NCBI GenBank assembly: GCA_026417795.1
Contig: JAOACP010000005.1
Coordinates: 35,001-89,971, forward strand
Direction of reading: 5' to 3'
Source: Thermanaerothrix sp.
Lineage (GTDB): Bacteria > Synergistota > Synergistia > Synergistales > Synergistaceae
DNA length: 54,971 bases
Below are positions 23,860-32,022 of this stretch, piece by piece. How positions within the stretch are numbered: the first letter of the stretch is position 1; each line of letters opens with the position of its first letter. The notes under the pieces were generated by a model. It was not told the origin of the DNA and searched no databases. It saw nothing but the letters and a program-made list of their open reading frames with translations. Both the position numbers and the translations under genes were made by a program.

Positions 23860-24816
23860 TTACGGAATTTTTCTTGCCTCCGCTGCTACTGTGATGGAGT
23901 CGACCAACACCTTCCCCATACGATCCATGAACTCATGGGGCACTTCTACGAAAATCCTGCGACACTCCTCCACATCTCTCTCCATCTGTTTTATCAGTTC
24001 ACAGGAGGAACCGAATCTTCGTTCATCCCTTATCATCTTCAATGGGAATACCGCCATCTCAGAGCCATATATGTCCCCATCGAATCCCACAAGGTGAGCT
24101 TCCACCCGGATGGAGCGGACTCCCTGAAAGGTTGGGTTGAAGCCTATGTTCAAAGCAGCACTCCGCCAACCACCTCTAACCCAAGCGGCGGCAGCATATA
24201 CCCCCCTGCCAGGTATGAGCTTAGAAGGGGGAAGGGATATGTTAGCGGTGGGGAACCCCAAACCGCGCCCTCTGCCATCTCCATGGACAACCCTTCCCAG
24301 CATCATGAAGGGGTAGCCTAGAAGTCTATTGGCATCGTATATGGCGCCGGATTCCACACAACCCCTTATCCTGGTGCTGCTCACCATATCTCCATCCACC
24401 TCAAGGCACCTGAGGGTTTTGAAGAACCATCCCCTTTTTAGGCAAAACTCCCTTAAAACAGCTACGTCACCGGCCCTACCGCGGCCAAAGCGAAAGTTGT
24501 CACCCACCACAACTCCTGATGGGGCAAACTTCCTCTCAACCAAGTAAAGGAAGTCAATGGGTGACATCTCCGCTACGGATCTGTCAAAGGGCATCTCCTC
24601 CATCACAGGCACCTCAAGGTAGCCAGCCAGGAACCTCCTCTCCCGTCTGCTGAAAAGAAGTCCCATCGGCTTATCTAAAAGGACCTCCTTGGGATGAGCC
24701 GCAAAGGAAAGCACTCCCCATTTTCTTCCCCTTTCCTTGGCGGCCCTATTGGCCTCCTTCAAGAGAAGCTGGTGACCCAGGTGAAATCCGTCGAAATATC
24801 CCATCACCCATATCAT
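23860..24816 (-). CDS. ribF: Bifunctional riboflavin kinase/FAD synthetase
   Basis: 318 aa. The N-terminal FAD synthetase domain has the nucleotidyltransferase HIGH-type motif in GYFDGFHLGHQ and the SSTRIR motif near residue 150. The C-terminal riboflavin kinase domain (about 185-310) contains GRGLGFPTANI and NIGFNPTF. It converts riboflavin to FMN and FAD, needed by the flavoenzymes here. The start lies only a few residues before the motif, slightly shorter than many homologues. End of the rimP-nusA-infB operon, next to truB, the standard arrangement. Confidence 0.93.
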   Translation of the reverse strand: MIWVMGYFDGFHLGHQLLLKEANRAAKERGRKWGVLSFAAHPKEVLLDKPMGLLFSRRERRFLAGYLEVPVMEEMPFDRSVAEMSPIDFLYLVERKFAPSGVVVGDNFRFGRGRAGDVAVLREFCLKRGWFFKTLRCLEVDGDMVSSTRIRGCVESGAIYDANRLLGYPFMMLGRVVHGDGRGRGLGFPTANISLPPSKLIPGRGVYAAAAWVRGGWRSAALNIGFNPTFQGVRSIRVEAHLVGFDGDIYGSEMAVFPLKMIRDERRFGSSCELIKQMERDVEECRRIFVEVPHEFMDRMGKVLVDSITVAAEARKIP

Positions 24817-24838
24817 GAGGCAAAACCCCCGATATTAA

Positions 24839-25750
24839 CTAAAGGACCATGTTCACCACACAATCCAGCCGCCCCCCATCGGCAAGCCGATATATTCCGC
24901 CGCCAGCTGAATGTCTAACAAAGACCGCCCCACCGGCCATAAGCCCAGGGGAAATGCGAAAGCCAACGAGATCCTTCGCATGGATGGACGCCCCGTTGAC
25001 ACACTGCTTATCCAAACGTTCCGGCACGTCACCACAGGGCAAAAGAGAAAGGACCCTAGACGCTGGGACAACACGAGAGAGCAGATCCTCCCTGGGAAGC
25101 TCAAGGGCCACCGAAAACGGAACTGCATCCTTGACAGCGAAAGGACCCACGGACATCCTTCTAAGCCTTAAAACCGAGGCAACGGTTCCAAGGGCCGTTC
25201 CAAGATCCCGGACCACGGATCTAACATAGGTTCCCTTGCCGCATAAAACACCCAGGGAGAACACCCCTTCACGGTCCGGATATCGGAGTATATCTATACT
25301 ACGGATCATCACTTCCCTAGGGGCTATGTCCGGCATTTCCCCTGATCTGCTGATCTCATGGGCCCTCCTGCCTCCTACGTGGACCGCAGATATGACAGGT
25401 GGGCGCTGAAACCTGCAACCTAACATTGACGCCACAGCACGATCAACCTGCTCCGATGAAACCCTTGGGGGGTCCTCCCGATGTAGGATCTTGCCAGTCA
25501 TATCATCGGTGTCGGTCGAAACCCCCAACATGCCGTCAACCATATACTCCTTGGGGAAGGACATCACCAGCTCAGCCAGGCGGGTAGAGCGCCCTATAAG
25601 CAACACCAAAAGCCCGCTAGCTCCCGAGTCTAGGGTCCCGGCGTGTCCCACTTTAAGGGATCTGCCAAGCCTAGATCGTATCTGCTCTACACAGGCGGTG
25701 CTTCGAAGCCCCTCCTCCTTATCTATCAGAAGAAATCCGCTGAAGCACAT
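24839..25750 (-). CDS. truB: tRNA pseudouridine-55 synthase
   Basis: 303 aa. The catalytic Asp lies in GHAGTLDSGASGLL near residue 42. The N-terminus GFLLIDKEEG and the KGTYVRSVVRDLG motif near 170 are family marks. A PUA-like domain ends the protein. It makes the universal T-loop pseudouridine. The gene overlaps nrnA by 32 nt. Confidence 0.94.
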   Translation of the reverse strand: MCFSGFLLIDKEEGLRSTACVEQIRSRLGRSLKVGHAGTLDSGASGLLVLLIGRSTRLAELVMSFPKEYMVDGMLGVSTDTDDMTGKILHREDPPRVSSEQVDRAVASMLGCRFQRPPVISAVHVGGRRAHEISRSGEMPDIAPREVMIRSIDILRYPDREGVFSLGVLCGKGTYVRSVVRDLGTALGTVASVLRLRRMSVGPFAVKDAVPFSVALELPREDLLSRVVPASRVLSLLPCGDVPERLDKQCVNGASIHAKDLVGFRISPGLMAGGAVFVRHSAGGGIYRLADGGRLDCVVNMVL

Positions 25751-26717
25751 GAGACACCAGCTCTCTCAAAAGCATCCTGGCCCCCTCCGCAGGGGACGTC
25801 TTGAGCCTAAACCCAGCAGCCCTTTCATGGCCTCCACCGCCAAACAAGGTCGCGATCTCTCGGGCACTCACAGGCCGCCGGGTCCTAAGGCTCACCCTTG
25901 ATATATCCCCGCCATCCCTACTTATCAAGGCCCCCGCCATGGCCCTTGGGGTTGAGAATATCAGGTTGACCAATCCCTCCGTGGAAGCAGAACCGCAACC
26001 ACATTGTCTAAAATCATCCTCGTCTAACCACGATACCACCACTAAACCATCATCCGATGCGGAAACCCTGCACAGTGCCTTCCCCCACAGGCGAAGTATC
26101 CCCTCATCCATCGACCTGTTCAAAACATCATCCACAAAGGCCAAGTCAACCCCTTGTGACAGGAGGAATGCCGCAGCGTCAAAGGTAGCGGGGGTCACCG
26201 AGCTGAACCTAAAGGACCCCGTGTCGGTGGCAATAGCAACGTAAAGATCCGTTGCGATCGGCGCCGATAGGGATATATGGAGATCACGAAACATTCTGGC
26301 CACCATCTCACCAACCGCTGCAGCGGATGGATCAACCCAGTTGTAATCCCCAAAGAACGAGTTATCGCCATGGTGGTCCACGTTTACAACCACATCTTCG
26401 TCCACCCGAGGTATCCTCTCCATGGCCCTGGTAAAGTCGCTATGATCCAAAAAGAACCACCCAACAGGCTCATCCCCAAGGGATAATCTCACATCACGTG
26501 GATCAAGAAAACGAATATACTCCCCAGCGGAACTAAAAAAGCTGTATATCCGAGGCATCTCACTGGGACCACACCAAACGACCTTCTTACCCATGGACCT
26601 TAGGATAGACGAGACCGCACTTCCACACCCCAAGGTGTCGCCATCCGGTTTTTCGTGAGATACAACTATCCATCGTTGAAATCTCTCCACGAGGTCAAAG
26701 AATGGGATAGGCGTCAC
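25719..26717 (-). CDS. nrnA: DHH-family phosphoesterase, nanoRNase/pAp phosphatase (NrnA-like)
   Basis: 332 aa. The DHH domain carries HEKPDGDTLG (metal-binding Asp residues) near residue 20 and NVDHHGDN near 105. The C-terminal DHHA1 domain has GGGGHERAAGF near 290. Degrades short oligoribonucleotides and/or 3'-phosphoadenosine 5'-phosphate. The position between rbfA and truB is the normal place for this gene. It overlaps rbfA by 4 nt. Confidence 0.9.
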   Translation of the reverse strand: MTPIPFFDLVERFQRWIVVSHEKPDGDTLGCGSAVSSILRSMGKKVVWCGPSEMPRIYSFFSSAGEYIRFLDPRDVRLSLGDEPVGWFFLDHSDFTRAMERIPRVDEDVVVNVDHHGDNSFFGDYNWVDPSAAAVGEMVARMFRDLHISLSAPIATDLYVAIATDTGSFRFSSVTPATFDAAAFLLSQGVDLAFVDDVLNRSMDEGILRLWGKALCRVSASDDGLVVVSWLDEDDFRQCGCGSASTEGLVNLIFSTPRAMAGALISRDGGDISRVSLRTRRPVSAREIATLFGGGGHERAAGFRLKTSPAEGARMLLRELVSHVLQRISSDR

Positions 26718-27133
26718 TCGGAATCCTCCTCATCCTCCCACTCATACGACGTGTCGTCCTCCCCAGCCTCTTCAACGTTACCTGGAGCGGCGGCATAAGA
26801 CGATAAACGGTTTAACAGGGCCTCCACCCGTCCAGCCCGGTCCTCGGTATCGTCATAAACAAACCTAAACTCCGGTATCTTCCTAAGCCTCATCTCCTTG
26901 CCCAAGAGGCCTCTAATGAGGCCCCCAACCTCCTCAAGGCCTGACTTGACTTCATCCACGGTGGATCTGTCCAGAACAGTGAAGTAAACCTTGGCCACGC
27001 TAAGGTCTTTAGAACAGGCCACCGCGGTCAATATGGCCATCCTCGCCTTCTCATTCTTAATCCTGCCCTGGAGCAGGATCGATATCTCCCTTAAGAATTC
27101 CTTGTTAAGTCTTTCAATCCGAAAGGTCGTCAT
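26714..27133 (-). CDS. rbfA: 30S ribosome-binding factor RbfA
   Basis: 139 aa from ATG at 27133 (MTTFRIERLNKEF). The longer frame to 27199 runs back through ylxP and is rejected. The KH-like fold is recognised from the RIERLNKEFLREIS start, the LSVAKVYFTV strand, and IPEFRFVYDD near 95. The C-terminal acidic tail (YEWEDEEDSE) is prominent. Assists 16S 5'-end maturation. Overlaps ylxP by 20 nt. Confidence 0.88.
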   Translation of the reverse strand: MTTFRIERLNKEFLREISILLQGRIKNEKARMAILTAVACSKDLSVAKVYFTVLDRSTVDEVKSGLEEVGGLIRGLLGKEMRLRKIPEFRFVYDDTEDRAGRVEALLNRLSSYAAAPGNVEEAGEDDTSYEWEDEEDSE

Positions 27134-27440
27134 CGCAAAAAACCTCTTCCAAAAAATCCAGGATCTCAAGGCCGTTATCCTCCGCCATGCGGGCAACAAA
27201 TGATTTAACGGCTTCGATCCTTCCTATCAGCTCGGAATTACAAGAACTCGCCAGAGCAAACCCCAATGCCACCGCCCCATAATCCCCATCGGGGCTGAGG
27301 TCCGCCAGGGAAACATTGAACTTGCCTCTAGCCTGATCCTGAACGGAGCGGATCCAACTCCTCCTATCCTTCAGGCACGAGAACATGGGACCTGTAAGCT
27401 CTACCCTCAAGTACCCCACCCATCCTCTAAGCCCTCCCAT
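27114..27440 (-). CDS. ylxP: DUF503/YlxP family protein
   Basis: 108 aa. The pattern VGYLRVELTGPMFSCLKDRRSWIRSVQDQARGKFNVSLADL is characteristic of the small DUF503 family encoded between infB and rbfA in many Gram-positive and related bacteria. Function not firmly established; thought to be linked to ribosome assembly by context. The acidic C-terminus overlaps rbfA. Confidence 0.85.
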   Translation of the reverse strand: MGGLRGWVGYLRVELTGPMFSCLKDRRSWIRSVQDQARGKFNVSLADLSPDGDYGAVALGFALASSCNSELIGRIEAVKSFVARMAEDNGLEILDFLEEVFCDDDLSD

Positions 27441-27461
27441 GGCGGACCCCCGTAATTTCTG

Positions 27462-29483
27462 CTAATCCAGGTGACGCTTTTCCTTCACCAGCTCGTAGGC
27501 CTCCACCACGTCTCCCTCTCTGAAGTCCTGGAAGTTTTGGAAGCTCAAACCGCACTCATAGCCGGCGGAGACCTCCCTTACATCATCCTTAAACCGCTTA
27601 AGGGTGGCCAGGGCTCCTTCCCATATGACCACTCCCTCCCTGATGAGTCGGACCTTGGCGTTACGCCTTATAAGTCCTTCCTGGACATAACAACCAGCGA
27701 TCTTACCCACCTTAGGAACCTTGAAGACCGCTCGAATCTCCACCTGGCCAAGTATGTTCTCCCTTATGGTCGGGGACAGCATGCCTTCCAACGCCGCTTT
27801 TACGTCGTCCAAAACGTCGTATATAACCCTGTAAAGCCTTATCTGAACCCCTTCGTTCTCCGCTATCTTCTTCGCATTGGCGTCGGGCCTCACGTTAAAA
27901 CCTATTATTATGGCGTTCGAGGCCGAAGCCAGCATAACATCGCTCTCCGAGATCCTCCCGACCCCTTCGTGAACGATGTTTATGCCCACCTCATCGGTGC
28001 TCATCTTCAAGAGCGAAGACCTAAAGGCCTCCACGGAGCCCTGGACATCACACTTTAGAACAAGGTTGAGCTGGGGAGCCTCACCGCCCTCCTGCATCCT
28101 CTCATATAGTTCCTCCAGCGTAAGACGGGACTCCTTCTTAACCTCCGCATTCCTCTTCTCTTGAAGGTGCATCTGGTAAAGTTCTCTGGCTTCCTTTTCA
28201 TCCGCAACCCTCTCAAAGGTTTCACCCGGCTGCGGCACCGACTCAAAGCCCAGTATCTCCACCGGAGTGCTTGGACCCGCCGCGTCAACGAAATTACCCC
28301 GGTGGTCCAGCATGGCCCTTATCTTGCCCCACGTGGAGTTGGTCCTTATCACATGGCCTCTTCGGAGAGTTCCTTCCTGGACTATCACGGTTGCCACCGG
28401 CCCCTTGCCCTTATCCAGGTTGGCTTCCACCACGGTCCCCCTGGGCTCTGCATTGGGATCCGCCTTAAGCTCCTCCATCTCCGCCACCAGAAGGACCATC
28501 TCCAGCAACTGGTCCACACCCAATCCGGACTTGGCTGCCACTTCCACCATTACGGTGTCGCCGCCCCACTCCTCGGGCACCAGGCCATGATCCGAAAGCT
28601 GCTGGCGCACCCGATCAGGTCTGGCCTCGGGCTTATCCACCTTGTTTATCGCCACGATTATCGGCACTCCCGCAGCTTTTGCATGGTTGAGGGCCTCAAG
28701 AGTCTGGGGCATGACCCCGTCATCCGCCGCCACCACAAGGATAGCTATGTCCGTAACCTTGGCTCCCCTGGCCCGCATGGCAGTAAACGCCTCGTGACCC
28801 GGCGTGTCCAAAAAAACTATCCTCTTCCCACCATAGTCAACCACCGAGGCTCCTATGTGCTGAGTTATACCCCCAGCCTCCTTGTCCGCCACCTTGGTCT
28901 TCCTTATGAAGTCCAACAAGGTGGTCTTCCCGTGATCAACATGCCCCATTACGGTCACTATGGGGGGTCTTGGCTGCACTTGACCAGAGGATGCAGGGAC
29001 CTCCTTCTTGGATTTGGACTTACCCTTGCCGGCCGCGGACTTATCCTTCTTCGACTTAACATTAACATCCTCTGGACCAGGGGTCACATCAAGATTCCCC
29101 TGGGAGGGCTCAAAGACAACCCCAAAGTGCTTGGACAGGACCGCCAAAACCTTCTCATCCGCCACGGCAGAGGCGGGAGCCATCATGCCGGCCTCAACCA
29201 ACACCTTTACCACTCCGCCAGGGGTCTGGCCTAAGGCCTTAGCGATATCACCAACGCTGCAGCCAGGCCTATATTGCACCTTTGGAGTATCTTTAGACTC
29301 ATTCTCTTCTCTACCGCCGCCAAGAACCGTATCCTCCACCAGCTGGGCCACATCGGCATCTATGGAGCTCATGTGGGTCTTAACGTCCACGCCTAAGTCC
29401 TTCAATATATCCATCAGCTCTCCGTTGGTCTTCCCCAACATCTTAGCCAGTTCATAAACCCTTATCTTGCTCAACAGTATCAC
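27462..29483 (-). CDS. infB: Translation initiation factor IF-2
   Basis: 673 aa GTPase that places fMet-tRNA on the 30S subunit. Two IF2-N modules ([22 protein letters not shown] and [20 protein letters not shown]) are joined by a charged Lys/Ser linker. The G domain follows, with [17 protein letters not shown] and NKVDK, then the beta-barrel and C-terminal domains. GTG start at 29483 with AAGGGGAG immediately upstream. It overlaps the L7Ae-like gene by 32 nt. Shorter than E. coli IF-2 because the linker is short. Confidence 0.95.
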
Positions 29484-29793
29484 TCTCCCCTTCTAAAAGA
29501 GACGCCAGCGACCGCCCCATCGGATCCGACAAGGGGATCGCCACCACGTTAACCGCCCTGGTACCCAGCGAACAACCAACTTCAGCGGAGTCAACACCAT
29601 TTAACCTATACACCGCACAACCGGTGCGACAAAATTTAAGCAGCAACTTGTCAGGACAGTCGCCCGATGCCAAGACCACCCAGGCGCTTGGCCTATCACA
29701 AACAGCCCTCATCGCCCTATCTTGACCATAGGCTATGACCCCACGACGCCTCATTAACCCTATAAGCCCCAAAAGTCTCCTAGGGTCAACCAT
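29452..29793 (-). CDS. L7Ae/YlxQ-family ribosomal-type protein
   Basis: 113 aa. The L7Ae fold is inferred from the N-terminal LLGLIGLMRRRGVIAYGQDRAMRAV pattern, WVVLASGDCPDK and the following beta-alpha pattern. Members bind K-turn RNA; the bacterial YlxQ role is unclear. It lies between rnpM(ylxR) and infB, the conserved place, overlapping both. Confidence 0.8.
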   Translation of the reverse strand: MVDPRRLLGLIGLMRRRGVIAYGQDRAMRAVCDRPSAWVVLASGDCPDKLLLKFCRTGCAVYRLNGVDSAEVGCSLGTRAVNVVAIPLSDPMGRSLASLLEGESDTVEQDKGL

Positions 29794-30076
29794 CAGATGT
29801 TTCCGCCTCCAGGGCTCTAAGCAGATCCTCCAAGTCCCTTATAACCTCGGGCCCCACGTCCACCCGAAGGGACCTCTGGAGGGCTTTTTTCTTCACCGCC
29901 AAAGCCAGGCACGATAAGTTAGGGCACAAATAGGCGCCTCGGCCAGGAGCCCGCCCGGACCTGTCAAGATGCACCTTCCCCTCCGGAGATCTAACCACCC
30001 TGACAAGGCCTCGCTTTGGAGCCTCGGTACCACATGCCACACAACGTCTTGGACGGCGCCGCTTCTCCTGTACCAA
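29786..30076 (-). CDS. rnpM: YlxR/RnpM family RNA-binding protein
   Basis: 96 aa. RRCVACG near residue 12 and the GRGAYLC signature near 50 identify the YlxR family, shown in B. subtilis to modulate RNase P. TTG start 2 nt after nusA, with GGAGAAGGA upstream. Sits between nusA and the L7Ae-like gene as in most bacteria. Confidence 0.88.
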   Translation of the reverse strand: MVQEKRRRPRRCVACGTEAPKRGLVRVVRSPEGKVHLDRSGRAPGRGAYLCPNLSCLALAVKKKALQRSLRVDVGPEVIRDLEDLLRALEAETSDG

Positions 30077-30078
30077 TC

Positions 30079-31188
30079 CTAATCCTTCTCCCCGCCTGCA
30101 TCGGCCATTATGTCTTCAAAAAGATCCTTCAGGGTAGGAAGCCTTTCGGGCTCCAAGACCTTTATGTCTATCTTCCAGCCCGTAAGCCGAGCGGCAAGCC
30201 TCACGTTCTGACCGGCCTTGCCTATCGCCAAAGACAGCTGATCCGGCCTTACGTACACCCTGAGGGCCTTCTCCTGATCAAGCATAGGCTCCACCTTAAC
30301 CGCCTTGGCTGGCGAAAGGGCGTTCCTCACGTATACCATGGGGTCGCTGCTCCAGGGTATGACGTCAACCCGCTCACCGCCCAATTCGTCCATAACCGAT
30401 TTTATCCTCGTTCCCTTAGGACCAACACAGGCACCCACCGGGTCAACGTTGGCGTCAAGGGATTGGACCGCCACCTTTGACCTACCACCAGCCTCCCGCA
30501 CGATGTTCTTTATCTCTATGATGCCGTCCCTTATCTCCGGAACCTCCAGCTCGAACAACTTTCTTAAAAGCCCGGGATGGGTCCTCGACACCACTATGCG
30601 GGGCCCCTTGGTGGTCTGCCTTACGTCCAGAAGGAAGAACTTAAATCGATCCGAAACCCTGTAAGTCTCCCCTAAGATCCTCTCCTCCCTGGGGAGTATG
30701 GCCTCGGTCCTGTCATTTAAGCGAACCAGAATCTGGTCTCCCTCTATCTTAAATATTACCCCCTGCACCAGATCCCCGGTCTTGTCTGCAAACTCCTCAA
30801 AGATAATCTGCCTTTCCGCGTCCTTCAGACGTTGAATTATGACCTGCCTTGCGGTCTGGGCTGCTATACGACCAAAGTTCTCAGGGAATACTTCTATCCT
30901 TATTACATCCCCAATCTCCACGTCCGAAAAACCCATCTTCCTGGCATCTTCCAAGGATATCTCCGTATCCGGATTATCCACACAAGACACCACCTGTTTG
31001 ACCTCTGAGAGGAATATCTCCCCGTTCTCAAAGTCTATGAATACCTCTACGTTCTGGTTTCCCCCCTTAAACTTCCTGTAAGCGGACACCAAAGCAGCCT
31101 CCAGGCTGGACGATATGATGTCAAGAGACAACCCCTTCTCCGCCTCAAGCTGCTTAAGGGCCCTGGTAAAATCCCTTCCCAAGATCAT
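30079..31188 (-). CDS. nusA: Transcription termination/antitermination factor NusA
   Basis: 369 aa: N-terminal RNA-polymerase-binding domain (about 1-125), S1 domain (about 135-200) and two KH domains (about 200-345, including DPVGACVGPKGTRIKSVMDELGGERVDV). No C-terminal acidic repeats, like Gram-positive NusA. It stimulates pausing and intrinsic termination. That is relevant because a terminator lies in the leader of its own operon. Confidence 0.95.
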   Translation of the reverse strand: MILGRDFTRALKQLEAEKGLSLDIISSSLEAALVSAYRKFKGGNQNVEVFIDFENGEIFLSEVKQVVSCVDNPDTEISLEDARKMGFSDVEIGDVIRIEVFPENFGRIAAQTARQVIIQRLKDAERQIIFEEFADKTGDLVQGVIFKIEGDQILVRLNDRTEAILPREERILGETYRVSDRFKFFLLDVRQTTKGPRIVVSRTHPGLLRKLFELEVPEIRDGIIEIKNIVREAGGRSKVAVQSLDANVDPVGACVGPKGTRIKSVMDELGGERVDVIPWSSDPMVYVRNALSPAKAVKVEPMLDQEKALRVYVRPDQLSLAIGKAGQNVRLAARLTGWKIDIKVLEPERLPTLKDLFEDIMADAGGEKD

Positions 31189-31234: not shown

Positions 31235-31684
31235 TTAGTCACAAAGCCTGGGATTCCTAAGCTCATCCCAAGGGCAGATCATTTCCTCCCCCTCTTGGAT
31301 GAGCCTTACCCTGCCATCAGGCATAACCTGATCTATAAAAAATGTCCTCTTCTTCCCCTTACCCATTGATATCTTGATCTTCCGTCCCATGAAACGCCTG
31401 AAGTCATCCAGACAGAGCAAAGGCCTCTGAGGCCCTGGAGATGAAACCTCCAGATAATACCTGTCCTTTATGCCGCCATCTTCATGACTATCCAATAGCT
31501 CATTAATGCGTCTAGAAACTGCCTCGCAATCCGAAAGACCAACCGGGTAATCCAGAGAATCTATGGTTACCCTTAAAACCTGGGCTCCCATCTCCCTTGC
31601 TACCTTAACCTCCAAACATATGTAACCCATTTCCCCAACCATACGCTTTATGTCATCACGCAAGCGAAATCCTGCTACCGCCAA
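31235..31684 (-). CDS. rimP: Ribosome maturation factor RimP
   Basis: 149 aa from a TTG at 31684, chosen because GGAGGTG lies 6 nt upstream and the product then starts at the family's usual place. The long frame to 31789 runs through the leader terminator. Family marks are VLRVTIDS, the SxxINELLD helix and YYLEVSSPGPQRPL near residue 78. Works in 30S assembly. First gene of rimP-nusA-rnpM-L7Ae-infB-ylxP-rbfA-nrnA-truB-ribF. Confidence 0.88.
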   Translation of the reverse strand: MAVAGFRLRDDIKRMVGEMGYICLEVKVAREMGAQVLRVTIDSLDYPVGLSDCEAVSRRINELLDSHEDGGIKDRYYLEVSSPGPQRPLLCLDDFRRFMGRKIKISMGKGKKRTFFIDQVMPDGRVRLIQEGEEMICPWDELRNPRLCD

Positions 31685-31716
31685 TGCAGCCACCTCCATG
31701 GCAAGGGGGACGGAAC

Positions 31717-31747
31717 AAAAAACGAAGAGTGGGATATAACCCACTCT
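31717..31747 (-). terminator. Intrinsic terminator inside the rimP-nusA leader (candidate attenuator)
   Basis: Perfect 8-bp stem (31740-31747 with 31726-31733), 6-nt loop, then TCGTTTTTTG on the minus strand. It ends about 33 nt before the rimP start codon, leaving no room for a promoter downstream, so all rimP-nusA transcription must pass through it. Confidence 0.8.
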
Positions 31748-31807
31748 CCAAACGCTAAACCCACCGGCTGTAGAAATCGCACAAGGCACAAAGGCTACTC
31801 TTTTCTC

Positions 31808-31836
31808 ATTATATTACACCGTTACCGCTAAGGGAA
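31808..31836 (-). promoter_or_regulatory. Putative rimP operon promoter
   Basis: TATAAT at 31813-31808 on the minus strand with a weak -35 (TTCCCT) 17 bp upstream. The implied leader to rimP is about 115 nt and contains the terminator at 31747-31717. Confidence 0.5.
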
Positions 31837-31842
31837 GGACCA

Positions 31843-32022
31843 TCACAGGTTCATATCGGCGGTAAACTCTGCCCACCAATCGTCCATACCCATCAGGAAG
31901 TCCTCCTCCGGCATGCTCTCCAGGGAGTCATCGCTGAACACGTCAAGCTCTAGATCGGGAAGCATCATGATCCCATCCTTATAGATATCACCAAAATCCT
32001 CGGGAACGTGAAACACCCTCAT
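31843..32022 (-). CDS. Small acidic protein of unknown function
   Basis: 59 codons, ATG at 32022 with GGGGGTGA upstream, 15 nt after guaB. The product is strongly acidic (about a third Asp/Glu) with MPEEDFLMGMDDWWAEFTAD near the C-terminus. Codon choice resembles neighbouring genes and the frame is clean, so it is probably real. It contains no domain I recognise. It fills the gap between guaB and the rimP promoter. Confidence 0.6.
   Translation of the reverse strand: MRVFHVPEDFGDIYKDGIMMLPDLELDVFSDDSLESMPEEDFLMGMDDWWAEFTADMNL

Follow-up and report, generated by a model that had tools for sequence, protein, structure and literature searches.

The hairpin and the operon behind it

The locus described here raises the question why an intrinsic terminator should stand in the leader of an operon of translation genes, ahead of the first gene, and which protein it might answer to. 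The window, that is, the whole stretch of 54,971 nucleotides of Thermanaerothrix sp. DNA that was analysed, carries the following features.

31808..31836, minus strand: candidate promoter, predicted only, with TATAAT at 31813-31808, -35 TTCCCT at 31836-31831, and a spacer of 17
31724..31749, minus strand: rimP-leader hairpin GGAGAGTGGG-TTATAT-CCCACTCTTC, from sequence and folding; the same hairpin in relatives
31749-31740, minus strand: 5' stem arm GGAGAGTGGG
31739-31734, minus strand: loop TTATAT
31733-31724, minus strand: 3' stem arm CCCACTCTTC, followed by G31723
31714..31722, minus strand: U-tract TTTTTTGTT, with six T at 31722-31717; T-rich tail kept in relatives
31682..31696, minus strand: Shine-Dalgarno GGAGGTG and rimP TTG start, from sequence (TTG 31684; alternative ATG at 31699)
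31235..31684, minus strand: rimP, putatively the first gene controlled (Pfam RimP_N, E = 1.5e-17)
30079..31188, minus strand: nusA, proposed feedback effector (TIGR01953, E = 2e-118; NusA_N and KH domains)
23860..30076, minus strand: remaining operon, from family searches (rnpM, ylxQ-position ORF, infB, DUF503, rbfA, DHH, truB, ribF)

The initial annotation had described a perfect 8-bp stem and six T placed 33 nt before rimP, and both the sequence coordinates and the fold agree with this description. AGAGTGGG and CCCACTCT form eight perfect Watson-Crick pairs, to which one G-U and one G-C pair are added, and the distance from the six-T run to the rimP TTG start is 33 nt. The folding energy of the hairpin is -18.0 kcal/mol (z = -6.0), and none of 200 shuffled sequences folded as well. 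What had been understated is the hairpin itself, as its sequence is near-invariant in relatives, which goes beyond an arbitrary terminator.

Family searches upheld the ten-gene operon that had been proposed, namely, rimP, nusA, rnpM/ylxR, a 113-aa ORF, infB, DUF503, rbfA, DHH, truB, and ribF, and there is a terminator-like site after ribF and a tRNA at 23715-23687. The 113-aa ORF (29452-29793, minus strand) lies between rnpM and infB, the position of ylxQ, and no Pfam or NCBIfam match to it was found. On the 5' side of the hairpin the window has guaB and then a 59-aa ORF, and the hairpin lies 93 nt past this ORF. The 59-aa ORF (31843-32022, minus strand), which is acidic and lies between guaB and rimP, is kept in 14 compared genomes with the core LPDLE...DDWW..F; it too gave no match in Pfam or NCBIfam, and evidently it represents an unannotated small protein family.

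Conservation with rimP and nusA

When rimP was searched for in the genome of the window and in 60 relatives it was matched in 55 genomes, and 55 rimP loci were fetched from the 54 relatives with a match, one genome having supplied two. The same hairpin was found upstream of rimP in all 55 fetched loci, and thus the conservation in relatives that the initial annotation had named as a check was borne out. The T-rich tail 3' of the hairpin was also kept across the relatives. In the 56 sequences made up of these loci and the window, the information per stem position was 1.2-2.0 bits, and it measured 0.15-0.24 bits in the loop positions and 0-0.5 bits in the flank just upstream. The invariant pairs are at stem positions 4-6 (GAG) and 9-10 (GG), and changes on both sides of a pair were seen at position 3 (A-T to G-C in 3 sequences) and at position 7 (T-A to C-G in 3 sequences). 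Because a few stem pairs change on both sides, a paired RNA fits these data. The exact pattern AGAGTGGG-N3-8-CCCACTCT, which covers 16 stem bases, occurs as a single copy per genome in 49 of the 61 genomes. In one genome (G015) the motif was found without a first-pass rimP match, yet it precedes a rimP that is truncated by the contig end.

The hairpin is constant among genera that differ in the gene 5' of it, which was identified in other genera from reading the sequences (guaB, a SpoU-type methyltransferase, an FAD oxidoreductase, HU, and others). These comparisons indicate that the hairpin is linked to rimP/nusA and not to the upstream gene, and that it is not there by chance. As a separate observation, one genome (G052) has two different rimP loci, L047 on contig 96 and L073 on contig 94, with their own hairpin variants GAGCAGG and GAGTGGG; this genome, whose listed contamination is 5, may be a mixed assembly.

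An exact-motif scan across 84,980 species gave at least 117 stretches; such a scan selects perfect matches only, and neither stem variation nor frequency per phylum is readable from it. At no fewer than 95 of these motif loci (themselves at least 117) rimP is 42-342 nt downstream. These at least 95 loci are mostly from Bacillota, and also from Synergistaceae, Nitrospirota, Hydrogenedentota, and Fusobacterium (taxa as named in the records), and the Synergistaceae contigs L174 and L227 are, among the matches listed, among the best scores against a rimP profile built from the relatives. At least 7 motif loci lack rimP and have nusA directly 3' of the motif, at 30-155 nt. Among the matches listed these are four from Verrucomicrobiota and one each from Atribacterota (Atribacteria), Elusimicrobiota, and Planctomycetota (L153, L195, L199, L214, L232, L236, and L162), the Planctomycetota case, with 155 nt to nusA, being the least certain. 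On reading, two other loci (L147 and L178) show a PolC-like protein to one side and are cut where rimP would be. The T-tract outside the relatives is often weak, the mean longest run being 2.9. It appears from these loci that the element follows nusA even where rimP is not at the locus. Because the motif precedes nusA where rimP is absent, NusA is favoured over RimP as the effector, and the comparative evidence supports nusA rather than rimP as the gene served.

The candidate promoter and other elements looked for

That the hairpin lies 3' of the only good -10 box was also claimed initially, and this holds, since TATAAT at 31813-31808, a perfect -10, is upstream of the hairpin and is kept in both other genomes of the genus and thus in all three. 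The -35, TTCCCT, is poor; a consensus scan found no full sigma-70 site in the window leader, and no promoter-like site was found between the hairpin and rimP in the window. Transcription in the window is predicted to start near 31801, and the short leader RNA is predicted to have its 3' end near 31717.

In 54 leaders, from the relatives and the window, the best σ70-like site 5' of the hairpin scored 11 or higher in 72% compared to 1.3% of shuffles, and the distance from the predicted start to the stem had a median of 24 nt (IQR 21-28). An extended -10 TG was present in 85% of these leaders, a share that is partly selected because the promoter score rewards TG with a bonus. For the exact-pattern loci listed, a σ70-like site with such a score was present in 60% compared to 3.2% of shuffles, the median distance was 23 nt, and TG was present in 89%. 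The genus of the window is an outlier, its predicted start being 40-51 nt before the hairpin and without TG, whereas in most genomes the distance is about 20-28 nt. The same scoring found no good promoter site at the four Verrucomicrobiota loci or at the Planctomycetota locus. The four Verrucomicrobiota nusA leaders (L195, L199, L214, and L236) have in common a ACTTTCGGCTTGCAAG block about 50-65 nt 5' of the hairpin, which is possibly a promoter element.

The absence of a clear antiterminator stem, remarked on earlier for the window, was seen in all the leaders taken together: the mean for pairing between the 5' arm and the 120 nt before it was 0.63 in 55 leaders and 0.63 in shuffles. Because no antiterminator is detectable and because the predicted start leaves few bases ahead of the stem in most genomes, what remains is a protein that acts on the polymerase or on the hairpin. 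There was no Rfam match at the hairpin in the window and, with no Rfam leader match and no antiterminator, a riboswitch, a T-box, or a ribosomal-protein leader was rejected. The Rfam model for rimP, RF01770, does not match the window form: at its gathering cut-off of 47 bits it had no match in the window, and none of the 61 genomes was above the cut-off. Since this model does not detect the form seen here, the element is probably unannotated in many genomes. A DNA operator, that is, a palindrome for a dimeric protein, was also rejected because the loop length of 3-8 nt across loci and the T-tract fit an RNA hairpin better.

The 3' arm contains CACTCTT, which we take to resemble the Nus boxA core. 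Sequestration of boxA was rejected because CCCACTCTTC is absent from those rRNA leaders of relatives that were in the correct orientation (L240, L242, L243, and L247), although the test is a weak one, the remaining loci having been wrongly oriented; in two of these four leaders CCTTTGAGT is found in place of CCCACTCTTC. When the leader was compared to plasmids there was no match.

The proposed NusA feedback and its alternatives

The rimP-leader attenuator family was described by Naville & Gautheret in 2010 (PMC2965389). Its common form, found in Firmicutes and others, has a GGGc(...)gCCC terminator stem and a T-stretch 4-130 nt before the gene and has no antiterminator or larger conserved element. 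The window shares with it the position in the leader of rimP-nusA-infB, a G-rich 5' arm and a C-rich 3' arm (GGG...CCC), the T-stretch, and the lack of an antiterminator. Its hairpin ends 33 nt before rimP, which is within the range given, its stem has GGG/CCC and is followed by six T, and arm pairing in the 55 leaders was at the shuffle level (0.63 vs 0.63). The identical 16 stem bases are found before rimP at many of the listed Bacillota loci, which makes the window form continuous with the Bacillota rimP-leaders. It differs in that the c-g pair described after GGG is absent in the window (GGGttatatCCC), whereas it is present in several relatives, for example, GGGC...GCCC in G040 and G041, and in that it belongs to another phylum, Synergistota. 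On these likenesses the window element is a member of this known family, which the initial annotation had not recognised.

In B. subtilis, nusA has been reported to be autoregulated through termination that NusA stimulates in the nusA leader (Mondal 2016, reviewed in PMC12288461). The window likewise has an intrinsic terminator ahead of the nusA operon, in its 5' leader, and would share the NusA feedback; its U-tract exceeds in length that of most Bacillota-type loci. In the gbs0413-gbs0418 operon of S. agalactiae, RNA-seq located termination 31 nt past the start and NusA feedback was proposed (PMC4448216). The operon is the same, but termination is predicted in the window, and the predicted leader is longer. 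In E. coli, NusA feedback on the rimP-nusA-infB operon has been reported (PMC2965389), and the metY-rimP-nusA-infB leader has, like the window, a terminator before rimP, in E. coli with a GGGC...GCCC core, but differs in having metY, RNase III sites, and terminators in tandem.

We consider it probable that this promoter-proximal intrinsic terminator is a rimP-leader transcription attenuator of the rimP-nusA-infB operon that is limited by NusA, where promoter use, termination, and the response to NusA are what we infer. RNA polymerase would start at the TATAAT promoter and would have made about 50 nt of leader by the time it comes to the hairpin and its U-tract. With abundant NusA, binding of this factor to the polymerase where the RNA exits would aid hairpin formation and prolong the pause, and most transcripts would stop near 31717; when NusA is scarce there would be more read-through and the operon including nusA would be expressed. 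The degree to which the polymerase is occupied by NusA would itself be the sensor, and an RNA switch would be unnecessary. Such a feedback had been suggested at the outset, and it is the reading best supported, as the hairpin is kept before rimP whatever the upstream gene and before nusA without rimP, and the mechanism has been published elsewhere. Against this reading, the six-T tract is strong and the hairpin stable, and termination may be independent of NusA; generic stimulation by NusA leaves a stem that is near-invariant in sequence, beyond pairing, unexplained; and the window promoter has a poor -35.

The hairpin could instead be the ordinary 3' terminator of a unit made up of guaB and the small ORF, with rimP having its own unrelated promoter. 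Its position 93 nt past the 59-aa ORF would let it halt guaB read-through in the window, but it remains with rimP in genera that lack guaB upstream, it is found before rimP or nusA in other phyla, and in the window a candidate promoter lies 5' of it and none between it and rimP. We hold this to be very improbable. Hardly any credence is due to the view that the hairpin mainly stabilises the operon mRNA at its 5' end or serves in RNA processing, and causes little termination: its place would be close to the start of the transcript and its T-tract is often weak outside the relatives, but the T-rich tail is kept in the relatives and premature termination at the operon was seen by RNA-seq in S. 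agalactiae (PMC4448216).

An attenuator in the rimP leader whose invariant stem is read by another effector, be it RimP, IF2, RnpM, or a ribosomal protein, is unlikely, even though a near-invariant stem with few compensatory changes is what sequence-specific recognition predicts and the possibility of RimP was also raised by Naville & Gautheret (PMC2965389). The motif persists without rimP where nusA is next, which disfavours RimP, and control by NusA has been reported in B. subtilis (PMC12288461). More speculative than the NusA-limited attenuator, and rather doubtful, is a widespread 'nusA-leader' in which promoter and terminator keep a near-fixed spacing. A hairpin no more than about 50-60 nt from the start would then gauge the speed at which sigma gives way to NusA on a polymerase that has just begun transcription, and NusA or the polymerase would recognise the invariant stem as such, over and above generic stabilisation.

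Switches of this type have been described before in other bacteria; what is added here is evidence of how tightly the terminator stays with nusA across many phyla. What may be new is the 16-base motif before rimP in several phyla and directly before nusA where rimP is absent (Verrucomicrobiota, Atribacterota, Elusimicrobiota, and perhaps Planctomycetota), the promoter-like site at a spacing of about 20-28 nt in most genomes, and a stem that is conserved in sequence beyond pairing; within an incomplete coverage of the literature, neither the loci with nusA first nor the spacing of the promoter across phyla was found described. NusA is a general termination factor whose level sets termination genome-wide, and an attenuator that senses NusA would be the simplest means of keeping that level steady. 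This leads one to ask what has held the stem sequence of a 'generic' terminator near-identical across several phyla.
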